Shown here piece after piece: positions 1,655-12,146 of a DNA stretch of 45,379 nucleotides. The DNA is from Chloroflexota bacterium (GTDB lineage: Bacteria; Chloroflexota; Dehalococcoidia; Lucifugimonadales; UBA3495). The first letter of the stretch is position 1; each line of letters begins with the position of its first letter. Under the pieces are notes generated by a model. It ran no database searches and was not told where the DNA came from. It saw only the letters and a program-made list of their open reading frames with translations. Both the position numbers and the translations under genes were made by a program. Where the stretch lies: the NCBI GenBank assembly GCA_009837355.1, contig VXTR01000088.1:1-45379 (forward strand). The letters run 5' to 3'.

Positions 1655-2938
1655 CTATTCGCTGGCCGGCCCGTCGCCCCACGGCACCTCCGGCAGGTTT
1701 CGCTCCCGGCGCACCTCGTTGATGGTCAGCACGCCCCGGTCCAGCAGCGCCGTCTCACGCTGCACCTTGCTGTTCTCATCCTCCTGCAGCGCCTCAATCG
1801 CCGACAGGTCGAACTCCACCGTCAGCTGCGGATACCCCAGCTTGGGCAGCAGCGACCGGTTCAGCTGGTCCTCCAGGAACTTCACCTCCGGCGCTACCGT
1901 GTTGCGCCAGAACATTCGCTCCGACGCTTGCACGTTGGCATACGTCGCCCGCTCAAAGTCGCCCAGCAGCAGCTTGGGCACGCCGTAGGCCCGGCTCACC
2001 TCTTCCAGGCTCCAACGCAGCCCCTGGATGAAGTCGATGTCCCGGTGCGACAGCCCCAGAGTCTTCACGTCCCGCACCGCCGACGCCACCGCCGGACGGC
2101 GCGCGTTCTCCGGCCCCTGGTAACGCTGCTCCCACCGGGCGTAGAAGTCCTCCAGCTCCGCCTCGTTCATCTCCTGGTTGGTCAGCAGCAGGAAGTCCGG
2201 GCGGGCCGAGTTCCGCAGCAGGTGCCGGTTGAAGTGCAGCCCCTCGTGGCCCATGTCCGCCGACAGCCGGGCCGGCGCCAGCGGCGACAACCCCGCCAGC
2301 TCCTCCAGCGGATTGAAATAGCGCAGCCAGACGATTTCGTCGGGCGTGTACGCCACCTGCTCGCTAGGCAAAGCCCCCGGCGCGCCCCGGTACACGAACC
2401 CCCGCACGTGCCGCCGACGGTCGGGTATCACGGCCATCCGGTCGGGACGCAGCGGCCACAGCTCCGGCTCGCCGTCCTCGCCCCGCTCAATCGCCCAGAA
2501 CGCCGAACCCCACAGGCACAGGTAGATTTCCGTCGCCCGCCACAGGTCCGTCCGCGTGTACCACGGATTCACCCGCTCCAGCAGCCGCGCCACCGGATGC
2601 GACGCCTCCACCGGAACCCGCCGGCTGGCTCCCTCTCCCCTGGCGGGGGTGTACCGGGGTGAGGGCGATTCCTCAACCCGGTACACCCGCAGCGGCGGCC
2701 GGGTCACCGCCTCGGCTCGCAGCTTCACCGCCGCGTACACCGACGGCGACGTCGCCATGTACCGCCCATACTCCGGACGCGCCCAGTCCTCGCCGCCGGC
2801 GCCGACTCCCGCCCCCAACTCGTCTCCAGGCAGCCGGTGCGCCGCCGCCCGGTTCACCTTCTGCGCTACAACGCCGCTACCGTTGCGCCCTCTGCCGCGC
2901 TCCGAAAACGCTCGTAACATCTTCCCAATTCCAACCAT
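1655..2938 (-). CDS. Phage portal protein (HK97-type)
   Basis: This 427-residue protein matches the phage portal family (PF04860): the portal ring through which DNA enters the capsid. Visible family features include SPSVYAAVKLRAEAVTRPPL near residue 75, a WRATEIYLCLWGSAFW segment, the PDEIVWLRYFNP motif, the YGVPKLLLGDFERATYANVQ region near residue 330 and a C-terminal LTINEVRRERNLPEVPWGD signature. I chose the ATG at 2938 because AAGGAGAG lies 9 nt upstream. An in-frame extension (MTMPRRRG) is made of repeat sequence. About residues 90-105 (SPSPRYTPARGEGA) derive from an inserted repeat. It lies downstream of the broken terminase on the same strand. No protease or capsid gene follows, so the module looks like a remnant although this frame is intact. 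Confidence 0.88.
   Translation of the reverse strand: MVGIGKMLRAFSERGRGRNGSGVVAQKVNRAAAHRLPGDELGAGVGAGGEDWARPEYGRYMATSPSVYAAVKLRAEAVTRPPLRVYRVEESPSPRYTPARGEGASRRVPVEASHPVARLLERVNPWYTRTDLWRATEIYLCLWGSAFWAIERGEDGEPELWPLRPDRMAVIPDRRRHVRGFVYRGAPGALPSEQVAYTPDEIVWLRYFNPLEELAGLSPLAPARLSADMGHEGLHFNRHLLRNSARPDFLLLTNQEMNEAELEDFYARWEQRYQGPENARRPAVASAVRDVKTLGLSHRDIDFIQGLRWSLEEVSRAYGVPKLLLGDFERATYANVQASERMFWRNTVAPEVKFLEDQLNRSLLPKLGYPQLTVEFDLSAIEALQEDENSKVQRETALLDRGVLTINEVRRERNLPEVPWGDGPASE
2629..2670. repeat. CTCCCTCTCCC repeat inserted in frame in the portal gene
   Basis: The plus strand reads CTCCCTCTCCCC, then TGGCGGGGGTGTACCGGGG, then TGAGGG. The two arms are partly complementary, as in the REP-like CCCTCTCCC...GGGTGAGGG elements common between genes in this kind of genome. 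Here it lies inside the portal frame and encodes the peptide SPSPRYTPARGEGA. Related copies lie at about 3575-3619 and 40326-40356. Confidence 0.6.
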
Positions 2939-2940
2939 AT

Positions 2941-3015
2941 CCCAACTCTCCTTAGTGCCTCTGCGCCTTGGCATCGTCAATCAAATCCTCTCCATCCCGT
3001 TCATCCTTGTGAATT
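2941..3015. repeat. Generic repeat sequence joining terminase end and portal start
   Basis: On the minus strand this stretch reads TTCACAAGGATGAACGGGAT, then GGAGAGGATT, then GATGCCAAGGCGCAGAGGCA and CTAAGGAG. Both halves look like the short stock repeats (AACAAGGATGAACAGGAT and GCCAAGGCGCAAAGGCACTAAGG types) that I recall from intergenic regions of many bacteria. The terminase frame ends inside it (residues DEFTRMNGMERI), and it supplies the portal ribosome site. The assignment is from memory; only one copy is present here. Confidence 0.4.
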
Positions 3016-4414
3016 CGTCTCCCCGGTCATCCAGGAACGCCAGCATCAAAGCGTCCGCCTTGTCCGGCGACGGCAAACTCCGACTGCGTATTTCGTCCTT
3101 CCCTTCTATGAGCAGCTTCCCCCGGCTGTTGTAGCGATAGCGCAGGGCCGCCAGCTCCGCAATCAGTTCCGGGTCATCGGGTATCCGTATCCGGCGGCTG
3201 CGGAACCGTTCCGCCAGCGCCCGGTAGCCTTCCGCCCGCAGGTTGGCGCAATCGTCGTCCCGCCAGGGCGCGGCCGCGCCGTTGACGCCCCGCACCGGTA
3301 TCCCCTACTCTCTCAGGCGGTCCACTACGCCGGAGCCAACTCCAATTTCGTCCACGTTCACCAGGCGGGGGCGGTGCTTGCGAACCGACGCCACCACGTT
3401 GCCGGCCACCGCCATGGTGTCCAACCGCGCAAAGACGCTGATTTCCTCCACCACTTCGCCCCGGCGCACTGCCACCACGCTGCGGTCGGATCCGAACCGC
3501 GCCACGTCCACGCCGATAACCGCCGAACCCGAGGCCGTTCCCATCCCCGGCAGAAACATCTCCGACCAGTCATACCCTCCTGCTCCCTCTCTACTTGCGG
3601 GCGAGGGCTGGGGTGATGGGTGTCCCTCATATACCGCCGCTTCAATGTCCGACATCGCAATCAAGCTGTCTGCTCCTCGCTCAGGAAACCTTCCCAGCAC
3701 CCGGGAACGGAAACGGTCGCTGTTTTCTCCCCAGACGGCGCGCCTCTCCTCAACCCACTGGGCCGTTACCAGGCCGGGAACATCAATACGCCCGTTTTCC
3801 ACGTTGGGCGAATCCAGCGCCGATATGGTGATGGTTTCGTAAATGCCCTGCTCCTGGTGGAAGGCCCGGTAAAACGCGCCCGATAACCGCGTCGGGTTGC
3901 TAATCAGCAGCAGCTTGGGATTCACGGAGGTCATCACCGCGTCGATGGCCTCGTAGATGGGTTCGGCCACTCCCTCCGCTTCGTCCACCACCACCAGCAT
4001 GTTCTCGCAATGAAAGCCCTGGAACTGGTCGGCGCCCGTCGCCGACAGCCCCATCGCGTACCGGTCCTCCGCCAGCTCCCAACGGATATCCAGGAGCTTC
4101 CCGCCCAACGTCTCCGCCGCGCGGCGGTGCAGGGCGTGAATCTGACGCCACAGGACGTGGCGCACCTGCCGGAACGTCGGCGCCGTGCTCAACACTATCC
4201 CCGGGTCGTGGGCGTGCAGATACCACAGCAACGCCACCGCCGCCGTAAAATCCTTGCCCAGCCCGTTGCCGGACCTCACCGCAACGCGTCGCCGGCGCCT
4301 GATGGCGTTCAGCACCCCTTTCTGCTTGTCCCACAGGCTCACGCCCAGGGTTTCCTCGGCGAACCGCACCGGGTCAATAATCTCTTTGTTGTCGTCCGTC
4401 GCTGACGGGGCCAC
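2981..4414 (-). pseudogene. Phage terminase large subunit, interrupted by in-frame TAG
   Basis: A GTG at 4414 opens a terminase large subunit (packaging ATPase plus nuclease). The ATPase has Walker A-like SGNGLGKD at about residues 48-55 and Walker B LVVVDEAEG at about 141-149. The nuclease starts at VIGVDVARFGSDRS (~300) and continues with LVNVDEIGVGSG (~352). At 3307-3305 a TAG follows VVDRLRE. The same frame resumes directly with GIPVRGVNG and runs through RIRIPDDPELIAEL and the final acidic motif SPDKADALMLAF to 2981. Relatives read Gln-Gly at the break (REQG), so a CAG to TAG change is the simplest explanation. The 369-residue front product lacks the last nuclease aspartate and should be inactive for DNA cleavage. 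The zinc-ribbon stop codon overlaps the GTG by one base (TAGTG), which indicates translational coupling. Confidence 0.85.
3575..3619. repeat. CTCCCTCTC...TGGGGTGATGGG repeat inserted in frame in terminase
   Basis: The plus strand reads TGCTCCCTCTCTACTTGCGG followed by GCGAGGGCTGGGGTGATGGG. This is another member of the CTCCCTCTCCC element family seen in the portal gene and downstream of pyrG. In the terminase it encodes HPSPQPSPASREGA (about residues 266-279), between the ATPase and nuclease domains. That peptide is the typical in-frame translation of such elements, and the reading frame is kept across it. Confidence 0.65.
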
Positions 4415-8072: not shown

Positions 8073-8111
8073 AAAAAAAATATCGGGGCGACTCCCAGGG
8101 TCGCCCCGATA
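8073..8111 (-). terminator. Intrinsic terminator of the tubulin-like gene A
   Basis: A 12-bp perfect stem, TATCGGGGCGAC (8081-8092) with GTCGCCCCGATA (8100-8111), has a 7-nt loop. On the minus strand it is followed by eight T residues (8080-8073), so it terminates the leftward tubulin-like gene. On the plus strand it could weakly stop the converging monooxygenase transcript. Confidence 0.88.
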
Positions 8112-8134: not shown

Positions 8135-9631
8135 CTACGGGCGGAAACCGCCGGCGCCATTCTCGTGGCCGTTGCCGTACTGCGTCGTCTGGGTCTGCGT
8201 CTCTACGGCGCGCTCCTGCTGCTTCCGCTCGTTGCGGATTTGAGCGCCGCGGGAGACGTACCCGTACTGGGAACCCGCGTCGGGGCGGCCGGGCGACATG
8301 AAGTGGCCAGTGCCGAAGCCGGTTTGCTGCAGCCCGTCCGCCATGTGCGCCGGAGTGTAGGTGTCGTGCATGATGTCCGTGATGCTGTAGATGTTCTCGG
8401 TCTGCAGCGGGTAGAACAGCGATATGTGCATGTGCCGGTCGTCGGCGTTTTCCTGGAAGTTGGCCGAGGCGAAAGACCAGGTAAGGTTGGGGTAGGCCAG
8501 ATCAAACTCTTCCCGGTCCAGCTGGTCCCGAACGTCGGATTCGATGTCGGTAAGGCCGGCGGTTTCGATGGGCAGCGTGATGACCATGCGCATCACCGAT
8601 TCGCCGTGAACGAAGTCGTGATTGGCCAGGTTCATGTCCCGGCGGGCGGGATCAAGGATGTCCCACATGGCCTTCTTGGTGGCCCAGGTGAGCTGCTTGG
8701 CGTCGTCGTTGACCACCACCAGTTCACGGCCACGCAGCGGGCCGAACCAACGGCTGCGCTGGGGCACGTCCACGACGTCCAGGCGCCGGTTCATCACCCG
8801 CATCCCGAACCAGCCGTTGGAGTAGCCGCCGAAGCTGGCCACGGTCTCGGCCAGGGAACCGCTGTCAATGCGATCCCGCATCCCTGCTTCCATCGAAGCC
8901 AGGCCGACGGCAAGCTTGCTGTCCAGGCGTTGATAATCCCGGGACAGGCGGTTGTCGGTAACCAGGGCCGGGAACCCGCTGCCGCTTCCGTTGGCGCTGG
9001 GGCGGGCCAGGCCCATGGTCTCCTCGTAGGCGCCCCACGTCTCCCGGCGCATATTCTCTTCGAGTACGTGCTCTCGAGGCATCAGCATGATGGGCAGGAA
9101 CAGCGCGTCCGGGAACCTGTCCTGCAGCAGTTGGTGCAGGACGCCGCCCAGCTTGGCGTGGCCGCCGAAGCCGAGCCATTCCAGGATAATCTGCGGCGGG
9201 GAGCCAACCTCCTCGGCGCGACGGACCACCGTATCCACCATGCGTTCCATGTCCCGGTGAATCAGCCCGTAGTAGTCCTTGTAGGCGTTGGGGTCGCGCA
9301 GGAAGCCGTCCACCTTGGGGAGGTATCCCGGCACTATCACCGGCAGGTTCGCGTTGCGGCCGCTGCGGCGCATGGCCTGGGTTTCCGCGTCAATGGCATC
9401 GATGCTGCCCTGGTTGCAGTCATACATCAGCAGGCTTTGCACCCGGTCAAGCACTCCGGCCTCGCCCATGCGCATCGCCCACTTCCAGCTGCGCTTGTAG
9501 CCGGCGGTTCCTACGGCCACCGACACAATCGGGGGCGGTACGCCGTCGCGAATCTGGTCCTGCTGACTCCCAATTCGGTGAGGATTATTGCGACGAATGT
9601 GGAAGGTTCGGTTTTGCAATTTAGGCGGCAT
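8135..9631 (-). CDS. Divergent tubulin/FtsZ-like protein A
   Basis: The 498 residues have the order of elements of a tubulin/FtsZ-type GTPase fold. A basic N-terminal tail is followed by a strand-loop-helix SVAVGTAGYKRSWKW (37-51, T1-like), then LLMYDCN (67-73, T2-like strand). IILEWLGFGGHAKLGG (148-163) then leads into HQLLQDRFPDALFLPIMLMP (T4-like loop plus helix). LVTDNRLSRDYQRLDSKLA (223-241) resembles the T6/H7 nucleotide-contact helix. The canonical GGGTG(S/T)G loop is altered to GFGGHAKLGG, so GTP binding is unproven. The tail from ~470 is Gln/Asn/Gly-rich and disordered, as in FtsZ tails. The start follows AAAGGGGG by 9 nt and a consensus promoter ~145 nt upstream. It is a paralogue of the next upstream gene. 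Confidence 0.6.
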   Translation of the reverse strand: MPPKLQNRTFHIRRNNPHRIGSQQDQIRDGVPPPIVSVAVGTAGYKRSWKWAMRMGEAGVLDRVQSLLMYDCNQGSIDAIDAETQAMRRSGRNANLPVIVPGYLPKVDGFLRDPNAYKDYYGLIHRDMERMVDTVVRRAEEVGSPPQIILEWLGFGGHAKLGGVLHQLLQDRFPDALFLPIMLMPREHVLEENMRRETWGAYEETMGLARPSANGSGSGFPALVTDNRLSRDYQRLDSKLAVGLASMEAGMRDRIDSGSLAETVASFGGYSNGWFGMRVMNRRLDVVDVPQRSRWFGPLRGRELVVVNDDAKQLTWATKKAMWDILDPARRDMNLANHDFVHGESVMRMVITLPIETAGLTDIESDVRDQLDREEFDLAYPNLTWSFASANFQENADDRHMHISLFYPLQTENIYSITDIMHDTYTPAHMADGLQQTGFGTGHFMSPGRPDAGSQYGYVSRGAQIRNERKQQERAVETQTQTTQYGNGHENGAGGFRP

Positions 9632-9776
9632 AGTACTGTACCCCCTTTCAGGTTAGACAATCCCGGTTATGACGCAGTAGTTCGTTTGGTCAGTTGGACT
9701 ACATCAAGTCAAACAGGGCCAGGTTTCAATCTAAGTAAAAGGCGACGGACCGGAGGCCCCGCCGTGACACGCGGCC

Positions 9777-9806
9777 ATTATAGTGGATGGCGTAAGAACA
9801 CGTCAA
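9777..9806 (-). promoter_or_regulatory. Strong promoter with long leader for tubulin-like A
   Basis: TTGACG (9806-9801), an 18-nt spacer and consensus TATAAT (9782-9777) lie on the minus strand. The predicted leader to the ATG at 9631 is about 140 nt, unusually long for this window. I found no known riboswitch in it. It makes gene A separately transcribed from gene B. Confidence 0.75.
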
Positions 9807-9824
9807 ATTGGTTACGAGTACAAT

Positions 9825-9856
9825 TATTTAGTAAAATTTCCATTTTTTGCTAAATA
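9825..9856 (-). terminator. AT-rich hairpin at the end of tubulin-like B
   Basis: TATTTAG (9825-9831) and CTAAATA (9850-9856) are exact inverted repeats, with A-runs facing T-runs inside. It includes the stop codon of gene B. It could act as a weak terminator or boundary, but there is no GC-rich stem. The surroundings are much more AT-rich than the rest of the window. Confidence 0.35.
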
Positions 9857-11217
9857 TAACGCACATTTTGTTCCCAGTCGTCATCCGGAGGTTCTACAGA
9901 AGCAGCCGATGCAAGTGGCCGCATGGAGGTAAAGGCGTCCATATGGTAATAAGAGCCGAAGCCCGTTTCATGCGGAAGCGCCTGCGTATGTTGCTCGGCA
10001 TCACGATCGGGATGCAGAATATCCATCACCGGCGCCAATTCCCCCAGGATGGGATACAGACGCGATACGTGCATATAGGGGTCTTTGGTTAAACCTTCAC
10101 TGAACCGCGCAGTGTTGAAGGCAATGTCTGTGTTGGGAAGCTGTCCGAAGAAGTTGCTGCGTTCCAGCGCTTCCGCAGTCTCCGCGGCCATGGGTTCCAG
10201 CGCGTCCGGATGCACCGGCAGCGACACCACCACTTCCTGGGGCGCATTGTAGGGTTCCTTCAAACCCGGCGTCATCTGCGATGACGGCTCCAGCGTGGAC
10301 CAGATGGCGTCGGCGATGGAACTCGACGTTTCTTCTTCCGAGCTCACGGTGGCGTATTCCTGCCACCACGGTGGAAAGCGCATCCACTCAAACTTCCGCG
10401 TTATCGGCATCTTCCGCCGCACCGTGGCCATGCCCAGCCACCCGCCGGAGGATGGCACGAGACGCCCGTAAGCGGCCGCCAGCTGGCTGCTGGCCGCCCC
10501 CTCCTCCTCAATCTCCGCAGCTTCAAATCCCGCCAGGGCCGTGCTCAGCCTGATGTCGTCGTCGCCGGAAGAACCCAGCGACAGCCCCGTTACCAGGCAG
10601 TTGGAGCCTTCCAGCAGGCTTTCATACTGTTCCCAGATATAGCGCCTGGTCCATTCCCTGGACGCGTGGTCTTCGGGCAGCGTCAGCACCGGCAGCAGCA
10701 CGCTGGCGGGAAAGGCCACGCGCAGCTTGCGGTGCAGCCGCCCGCTGGGCACCGAGTGCCCGGAGAATCCCAGGAACTCGATGATTACGTCGGGCGAGCG
10801 GCCGGAACTCTCGGACTGCGCGCCGACCTGCCCCACGATGTTGTCCATGTCCCGCTCCAGCGGGCCTTCGTATTCCTCAAACCGCCTGGGGTTGCGCATA
10901 AATCCGTTGGGCATCGGCACGTAGCTGGGAAATAGTACCTGCATACCATGGCCATGCCTGGACCTCCCCAGGAACCTGCGCAGGAACTTCTGCACGTAGG
11001 AAACGGTGAGCTCGTTGCAGTCGTAGAAAACTACGCTTTGAACCTTCCCCAGCTGGGAAAGTTCCGCCATGCGCTGCAGAAACCACAATGCCCTCCGCGC
11101 GCCGGCCGTGCCGGTGCCCAATACCACCAGCGATGCCGCCGCTCCATTCGTCTTGCGCTTGGTGGTGCGGAGCAGTCGGTTGCTTCGGCTGCGCGCCTTT
11201 ACGAATGTGTTCGGCAT
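9850..11217 (-). CDS. Divergent tubulin/FtsZ-like protein B
   Basis: This 455-residue paralogue of the 8.1-9.6 kb product is collinear with it over most of its length. Shared blocks are the glycine loop VVLGTGTAGARRALWFL (31-47), VVFYDCNEL (62-70), SYVPMPNGFMRNPRRFEEYE (98-117), VIIEFLGFSGHSVPSG (144-159) followed by LHRKLRVAFPASVLLPVLTL, and a helix with STALAGFEAAE (225-235). Gene B keeps a GTGTAG glycine loop, closer to the tubulin GGxG pattern than A. Its T6-like segment reads CLVTGLSLG instead of ALVTDNRLS, so the Asn thought to contact the nucleotide base in tubulins is lost. The N-terminal 25 residues are strongly basic. No good ribosome site precedes 11217; the gene follows the hydrolase by 55 nt and may share its transcript. 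Confidence 0.6.
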   Translation of the reverse strand: MPNTFVKARSRSNRLLRTTKRKTNGAAASLVVLGTGTAGARRALWFLQRMAELSQLGKVQSVVFYDCNELTVSYVQKFLRRFLGRSRHGHGMQVLFPSYVPMPNGFMRNPRRFEEYEGPLERDMDNIVGQVGAQSESSGRSPDVIIEFLGFSGHSVPSGRLHRKLRVAFPASVLLPVLTLPEDHASREWTRRYIWEQYESLLEGSNCLVTGLSLGSSGDDDIRLSTALAGFEAAEIEEEGAASSQLAAAYGRLVPSSGGWLGMATVRRKMPITRKFEWMRFPPWWQEYATVSSEEETSSSIADAIWSTLEPSSQMTPGLKEPYNAPQEVVVSLPVHPDALEPMAAETAEALERSNFFGQLPNTDIAFNTARFSEGLTKDPYMHVSRLYPILGELAPVMDILHPDRDAEQHTQALPHETGFGSYYHMDAFTSMRPLASAASVEPPDDDWEQNVRYI

Positions 11218-11272: not shown

Positions 11273-12073
11273 TCAGGAACCGGGTTTCAGGAAGGCCAGC
11301 ACCGCATCGACGAAGCCCTCCGGGTCTTCAATCTGCGGGATGTGCCCAACGCCCGGCATGATGTGCTTGCGAGCCCGCACAATGTTGTTGTGCAGCAGCT
11401 CTTCGCCGTCCCGCAGCCGGTCAACCTCGCCGTACAGCACCAGCGTCTCCCGGGCCTGCACCATCGGCAGCCGGGCCATGATGTCGTACCAGGCCAGCGA
11501 TTCGTGCAGCTTCTTCACCCAGGTGCCGGCCTGGGCCCGCGTGTCATTCTGGGCGTCCACCCACTCTTGCCTGGGTTCCGCAAAGGTGGTTGACTCTTTC
11601 GCCTGTTCCATGGTTCGGGGAACCGGCAGGCCGTCGGCGTCGTAGCCGGCGGCGGTCTCGGCAATACGCTCCGGCGCCGTGCGGGCGTCCCACACCGGCG
11701 AGCCCACCAGCACCAGCTTGTCCAGCCGGTCCGGGAACGAGGCGGCCATCTCCGTGGCCAGGACGGCCCCCACCGAATTGCCCACGTAATGGCCCCGGTG
11801 TATGTTCAGAATCTGGCAGGCGTCGTCCAGGGCCTGCGCGTAGTCCGGGATGTTGAAGTGGCGCGTCGGCTTGTCGGACTTGCCGTGGCCGAGCATATCG
11901 AAAGCGTAACAGGTATAGTGCTGGCTGAAAGCGTCGATGACGCTGCTCCACGCCCAGGTGGAAGTGCCCAGCGGGTGCAGCATCACCAGCGGATAGCCGG
12001 CGCCCTGCTTCACAAAGTGCATGTTGCCTTCGCGGGTGGTAACGGTGTCGGTAAGGTCGCGCCGCACGAACAT
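11273..12073 (-). CDS. Alpha/beta-fold hydrolase
   Basis: This 266-residue hydrolase has the oxyanion-hole block LVMLHPLGTSTWAW near residue 27, FDMLGHGKSDKP, and the nucleophile elbow HYVGNSVGAVLATEMA with Ser in GNSVG at ~100. The C-terminal acid (LVLYGEVDRL) and histidine (GVGHIPQIEDPE) are also present, so the catalytic triad looks complete. The substrate is unknown; relatives include meta-cleavage-product hydrolases, esterases and haloalkane dehalogenases. I chose the ATG at 12073 because AGGAGGC precedes it by 7 nt; a longer frame to 12139 lacks a ribosome site. It is the first gene after a TTGACA promoter and lies upstream of tubulin-like B. Confidence 0.88.
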   Translation of the reverse strand: MFVRRDLTDTVTTREGNMHFVKQGAGYPLVMLHPLGTSTWAWSSVIDAFSQHYTCYAFDMLGHGKSDKPTRHFNIPDYAQALDDACQILNIHRGHYVGNSVGAVLATEMAASFPDRLDKLVLVGSPVWDARTAPERIAETAAGYDADGLPVPRTMEQAKESTTFAEPRQEWVDAQNDTRAQAGTWVKKLHESLAWYDIMARLPMVQARETLVLYGEVDRLRDGEELLHNNIVRARKHIMPGVGHIPQIEDPEGFVDAVLAFLKPGS

Positions 12074-12146
12074 AACGGTGGCCTCCTGTTGGTAGCGAAA
12101 CAAGGGACGCTGGACGAACCCCCGTAGGGGTTGCCCCATTGCTGTA

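Follow-up and report, generated by a model that had tools for sequence, protein, structure and literature searches.

The window analysed here is a stretch of 45,379 nucleotides from a Chloroflexota genome of 3.25 Mb (97% complete), in which the genes of interest lie on contig C48. These two genes, here called A and B, are neighbours with the same orientation; on the minus strand B comes first and is followed by A. The first-pass annotation had described them as adjacent, collinear paralogues of tubulin/FtsZ type without a named family, and these claims were borne out. Alignment of the two proteins covered 445 residues, of which 28% were identical (E 8e-51), so that they are paralogues rather than products of chance similarity, and they form an old duplicated pair. 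Within the FtsZ/tubulin superfamily, A and B make up a new and highly divergent branch that belongs to none of the named families tested.

Protein A consists of a basic N-terminal extension (residues 1–30), a tubulin-like core (about 31–440) and a Gly/Asn-rich tail. The tail of B is acidic and ends in VRY(I/V/F) in 11 of the 12 full copies aligned, the remaining copy coming from the most divergent genome (G730, L040:10580-10664). The N-terminal extensions of both proteins are basic and conserved. Purifying selection was detected on both genes, with ratios of non-synonymous to synonymous substitution (dN/dS, NG86) of about 0.02–0.07 for A and 0.07–0.19 for B, and the rate of evolution of B is about two to three times that of A. 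The shared blocks listed in the first-pass annotation are real: GTxG, YDCN, PxYxPxxxGFxRdP and IIE(W/F)xGFxGHxxLGG are invariant or nearly so in relatives. Coordinates are collected in Table 1.

Table 1. Genes, predicted nucleotide-pocket loops and expression signals at the A/B locus (window coordinates; aa, amino acids; ORF, open reading frame).
Feature	Coordinates	Strand	Basis
Gene A, tubulin-fold protein, 498 aa	8135..9631	-	ORF; AlphaFold2 predicted template modelling score (pTM) 0.71; present in 14/14 genus genomes
Gene B, tubulin-fold paralogue of A, 455 aa	9850..11217	-	ORF; 28% identity to A
A loop T1, VGTAGYKR, residues 40-47	9491..9514	-	Profile alignment to FtsZ T1; conservation 100th percentile
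A loop T2, YDCNQ, residues 70-74	9410..9424	-	Aligned with FtsZ NTDAQ; conservation
A loop T4, LGFGGHAKLGG, residues 153-163	9143..9175	-	Replaces GGGTG(S/T)G; alignment, conservation
A loop T6, LVTDNRL, residues 223-229	8945..8965	-	Asn kept; alignment
A T7-equivalent loop, DRIDSGSLAE, residues 253-262	8846..8875	-	AlphaFold2 secondary structure, global profile alignment
B loop T1, TGTAGARR, residues 35-42	11092..11115	-	Alignment, conservation
B loop T2, YDCNE, residues 65-69	11011..11025	-	Alignment, conservation
B loop T4, LGFSGHSVPSG, residues 149-159	10741..10773	-	Alignment, conservation
Promoter of A, TTGACG-N18-TATAAT	9777..9806	-	B-A gap; 11/12 consensus
Ribosome-binding site of A, AAAGGGGG, GGGG core, conserved	9641..9648	-	Comparison of loci
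Intrinsic terminator after A, 12-bp stem, T8; strong	8081..8111	-	Sequence
Alpha/beta hydrolase gene, directly upstream of B	11273..12139	-	Pfam Abhydrolase_1 5.7e-28; conserved synteny

Structures were predicted with AlphaFold2 from 22 family sequences. For A, the best model had a mean predicted local distance difference test (pLDDT) of 69 and the pTM given in Table 1, with the other four models far lower (48–53); the B model was weaker (pLDDT 57, pTM 0.54). Comparison of the models against the PDB with Foldseek, a check proposed in the first-pass annotation, gave tubulin matches for both. The best 50 matches of A were all tubulin-containing entries (best E 3e-12), and B matched tubulins and TubZ (E 2e-5), with phage c-st TubZ among the top hits. 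In VIA-align, A was matched to tubulins with Z of 23.5–21.5 over model residues 31–440, covering both tubulin domains; the top match was a gamma-tubulin-complex chain (Z 23.5), followed among others by BtubA (7quq; Z 23.1, root-mean-square deviation 3.8 over 317 residues, model 31–426) and CetZ (3zid; Z 21.7). For B, the match to tubulin had Z 17.7 and extended over 242 residues, most of them in the N-terminal domain. Matches to phage tubulins were found in BFVD (E 2.6e-8). By these predicted models, both proteins have the tubulin/FtsZ fold.

Since AlphaFold2 could be steered by a few motifs, homology was also assessed from sequence alone. Searches with A and B against Pfam, NCBIfam, PHROGs, PADLOC and PDB sequences returned no recognised family. 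Of the two Pfam tubulin families proposed for comparison in the first-pass annotation, PF00091 gave no match to A or B and PF13809 none at E up to 10; support came instead from a merged tubulin profile of Chloroflexota FtsZ, FtsZ-like and FtsZl1 proteins, to which a profile of the whole family (A, B and the additional copies C and D described below) was compared with hhalign. The score was 50.7 (E 1.1e-5), with at most 25.3 in 60 column shuffles. Against FtsZl1 alone it was 38.0 (E 5.5e-4), against FtsZ alone 21.4, and against 15 unrelated families at most 20.4; comparisons of A or B with single small tubulin groups were not significant, significance being attained with merged profiles only. 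The alignment runs collinear across T1, T2, T4 and T5. As the family profile scores far above the shuffles and the unrelated families in a collinear alignment, homology to the FtsZ/tubulin superfamily is well supported at the profile level, with FtsZl1/Tubulin_2 as the nearest profile.

The nucleotide pocket is remodelled in the same way in both proteins. The T4 signature GGGTG(S/T)G is absent from all copies, and (G/S)FxGH stands in its place, in agreement with the first-pass annotation. In T1, all copies of A and of B carry the GxxG as GTAG or GTQG (GTAG at residues 41–44 of A and 36–39 of B). The Asn of T6, a predicted guanine contact, is present as DN in A and C and absent from B, which has LVTGL or VTTQS. 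The earlier suggestion that the motifs are split between the two proteins was thus correct for the T6 Asn, which is found in A only, and wrong for the GTAG loop, which both carry; T4 and T7 are canonical in neither. No NxDxx(D/E) was found at the T7 position of any copy; in A the position of the catalytic Asp is Ser259 by global profile alignment, in a poorly conserved loop, and B has nothing conserved there. Conservation was expressed as a percentile among equal-length stretches after removal of near-duplicates, and because these stretches overlap the values are descriptive and not a formal test: for A, T1 and T2 lie at the 100th percentile, T3 at the 94th, T4 at the 99th and T7 at the 27th, and for B, T1 at the 83rd, T2 at the 100th, T3 at the 94th, T4 at the 91st and T7 at the 7th. 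The combination of strongly constrained T1–T4 loops and a drifting T7 suggests that a ligand is bound but not hydrolysed in the canonical way. The pocket thus probably still binds a ligand, and canonical GTP hydrolysis by A or B is unlikely.

A profile of A and B was run against 250 genomes of the order. Each gene was found in 14 of the 14 genomes of its own genus, and evenly drawn samples of the class (393 genomes) and phylum (400 genomes) contained no further credible member. Weak matches in G341 and G490 overlapped other genes or contained a stop and were discarded as chance. No significant relative of A or B was found on viral contigs, phages or plasmids. The pair is essentially confined to one SAR202 genus of the Chloroflexota. 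All relatives from the genome scan are Dehalococcoidia/Chloroflexota assemblies, one of them named SAR202 bin87, whose source was the sponge Aplysina aerophoba (PMC5649159); bacteria of this genus are uncultured and at least partly sponge-dwelling.

Outside the regular pairs, the order search gave only two extra copies. Copy D (L039:6548-6889), from G758 of a sister genus, is an N-terminal fragment at a contig end with 34–37% identity to A, and its presence there suggests that the family either arose before the genus did or was transferred. Copy C (L038:5668-7032, minus strand), from G726 of the same genus as the window, is a third, more divergent paralogue (27% to A) that keeps GFGGH and SDN and has GSAA where GTAG would stand; its neighbours are the truncated remnant of an N6/N4 DNA methylase gene and a transposase of type IS4/5.

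The gene order alpha/beta hydrolase, B, A and a convergent luciferase-like monooxygenase is kept in nearly all loci. In L013 no monooxygenase was seen behind A, and in G727 and G723 the contigs are broken between or within the pair genes; adjacency of A and B holds wherever contigs permit. The hydrolase proteins of relatives start at the position of about 12073. No pathway was read from these neighbours, as hydrolase and monooxygenase resemble metabolic enzymes and the monooxygenase is convergent. Elsewhere in the window (1655-4414, minus strand) lie a phage portal protein gene (PF04860, 2e-68) and a terminase-large-subunit-like ORF (phrog_2, 2e-29), a prophage remnant that is not found at this place in relatives. 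The genome itself has one canonical FtsZ at another location, its sole PF00091 match, and nothing significant to PF13809 was found in the genus. Sister genera of the same family (L041-L057) carry FtsZ and two FtsZ-like kinds with intact GGTGSG/GGTGAG per genome, together with compact FtsZl1/Tubulin_2 proteins with GGGTIG.

Gene A has its own expression signals. In its promoter, TTTGACG and the TATA-T positions are invariant in all 11 loci compared, against a mean column identity of 44% across the gap. Codon usage was scored for 26 genes with the ATP-synthase genes of the window as reference; A reached 0.55, in the mid-range, and B 0.37, the second lowest, just under the terminase-like ORF. The separate promoter, the codon index and the slower change of A suggest that its production does not depend on that of B and exceeds it. 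The gap between hydrolase and B is longer in one sub-clade, which makes an obligate hydrolase-B operon uncertain. Within this longer gap (L009, L010, L012 and L014), an inverted repeat around GCCGACGG...CCGTCGGC lies downstream of a TTAAAAT-like box; it is absent from the short gap of the window.

Alongside these computed properties (the fold, the shared remodelled pocket, the loss of T7, the loss of the T6 Asn in B and the genus-wide neighbouring pair), a mechanism is tentatively proposed, which we regard as plausible but somewhat short of probable, with A as the main assembling subunit holding an unhydrolysed ligand and B as a minor partner. The ligand held in the pocket, a guanine nucleotide or something in its place, would stabilise the subunits without turnover of the FtsZ/tubulin type. 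A would assemble through tubulin-type contacts, giving a filament or sheet that is static or exchanges slowly, and B, probably less expressed and lacking the base-contacting Asn, might cap, nucleate or anchor this assembly. The basic N-terminal extensions and the C-terminal tails would be likely sites of attachment to membrane, DNA or other proteins, and the genome's canonical FtsZ would remain responsible for cell division. The wider picture of a two-component tubulin-fold cytoskeleton, in which the GFxGH pocket serves a ligand or control other than GTP hydrolysis, with A as the main component and B as a regulator that does not bind the base, is possible but doubtful. Several points weigh against the proposed mechanism of a main subunit A and a minor partner B. 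Much of the C-terminal half of B was modelled with pLDDT under 50; the signal from sequence depends on combining all family members, as a profile built from A alone scored 20.5 against the tubulin profile, below significance; and T6 and T7 were assigned from secondary structure prediction together with a profile alignment of low identity. The low codon adaptation of B could also reflect fast evolution or drift in composition, and no conserved partner gene gives a functional context.

An obligate heterodimer like alpha/beta tubulin or BtubA/B, as envisaged in the first-pass annotation, would have A and B alternating in a protofilament with composite nucleotide sites. Constant adjacency where contigs allow, the shared strand, the full length of both genes and the presence of both in all 14 genomes speak for such a dimer, as do T1, T2 and T4 loops of the same type; however, a strict 1:1 arrangement is not favoured by the separate, invariant promoter of A and the poorer codon usage of B, nor by the two- to threefold faster evolution of B. 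Furthermore, since both proteins have lost T7 and B also the T6 Asn, a complete canonical site would be present at none of the alternating interfaces, and we consider such a heterodimer rather unlikely. The pair could also be a divergent FtsZl1/Tubulin_2 membrane-remodelling system reduced to a compact form, given that FtsZl1 is the nearest profile (38.0, with FtsZ at 21.4 and none of the 15 decoys above 20.4) and that compact FtsZl1 genes occur in sister genera and are lacking in this genus. It is nevertheless unlikely to be one, as A and B have no PF13809 match and no long coiled-coil extension, their neighbours include no vWA, P-loop GTPase or OmpA gene, and A retains a tubulin-like C-terminal domain, which could not be found in FtsZl1 (PMC2875224).

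The BFVD phage-tubulin matches, the basic N-terminal extensions, the portal and terminase genes nearby in the window and the transposase beside copy C would all fit a TubZ/PhuZ-like filament of mobile origin that segregates DNA or phage. This origin is nevertheless very improbable: synteny is stable across the genus and relatives lack the phage genes at this position, no significant relative was found among phages, plasmids or viral contigs, and no partition-type neighbour was seen. Equally, canonical T4 and T7 are missing from every copy, as would be expected of pseudo-tubulins that act as pure protein scaffolds without any ligand, but conservation of T1–T4 at the 94th–100th percentile in A and the 83rd–100th in B is hard to explain without a ligand in the pocket, which makes such scaffolds a highly improbable reading.

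Members of the tubulin superfamily are recognised by their T4 signature, yet the conserved pair described here has given it up and retained both the fold and the remainder of the pocket. Surveys based on motifs and Pfam can thus overlook whole branches of the superfamily. The pair is a natural test of what the tubulin fold can do without canonical GTP hydrolysis, and may represent a new cytoskeletal or scaffold system not driven by it. Both proteins are of ordinary size with no obvious obstacle to expression, so that polymerisation and structure are directly testable.

Among known systems, the eukaryotic Misato/DML1 and chloroplast ARC3 are degenerate tubulin/FtsZ relatives thought to be without normal GTPase. 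They resemble A and B as superfamily members presumably lacking this activity, whereas A and B are bacterial. CetZ, TubZ and PhuZ have the same fold as A and B but retain a GGGTGSG-type T4, and phage or plasmid relatives of the pair were not found. CetZ-like proteins have been reported in Dehalococcoidia (PMC9871819), and a search of the open-access literature for tubulin relatives in SAR202 found nothing beyond these. SAR202 cells in A. aerophoba have been described as rods (PMC6306507), a shape that does not hint at any special morphological role.

BtubA and BtubB of Prosthecobacter are, like A and B, a bacterial pair of neighbouring tubulin-fold genes. In the structural alignment, A and BtubA share about 12% sequence identity despite the Z of 23.1. 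The GTP motifs of BtubA/B are intact, while A and B lack the canonical T4 and T7; A also has a promoter to itself, and no gene of the BtubC type was seen with the pair. As true tubulins, BtubA/B stand close to the alpha/beta tubulins, and the paired Prosthecobacter tubulins share one operon (PMC9871819).

FtsZl1 (PF13809, Tubulin_2; Makarova and Koonin 2010, PMC2875224), the nearest by profile, likewise comprises divergent superfamily members usually found alongside a conventional FtsZ, with compact copies in the sister genera. The family is characterised by an N-terminal FtsZ-like domain, a coiled coil and a helical domain and by a vWA/GTPase/OmpA operon; a membrane-remodelling complex has been proposed for it (PMC2875224). 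A and B differ in having GFxGH at T4 in place of GGGTG(S/T)G or GGGTIG, in their length of 455–498 residues without a long coiled-coil extension, in the lack of such an operon, and in forming a paralogous pair with a predicted tubulin-like C-terminal domain.

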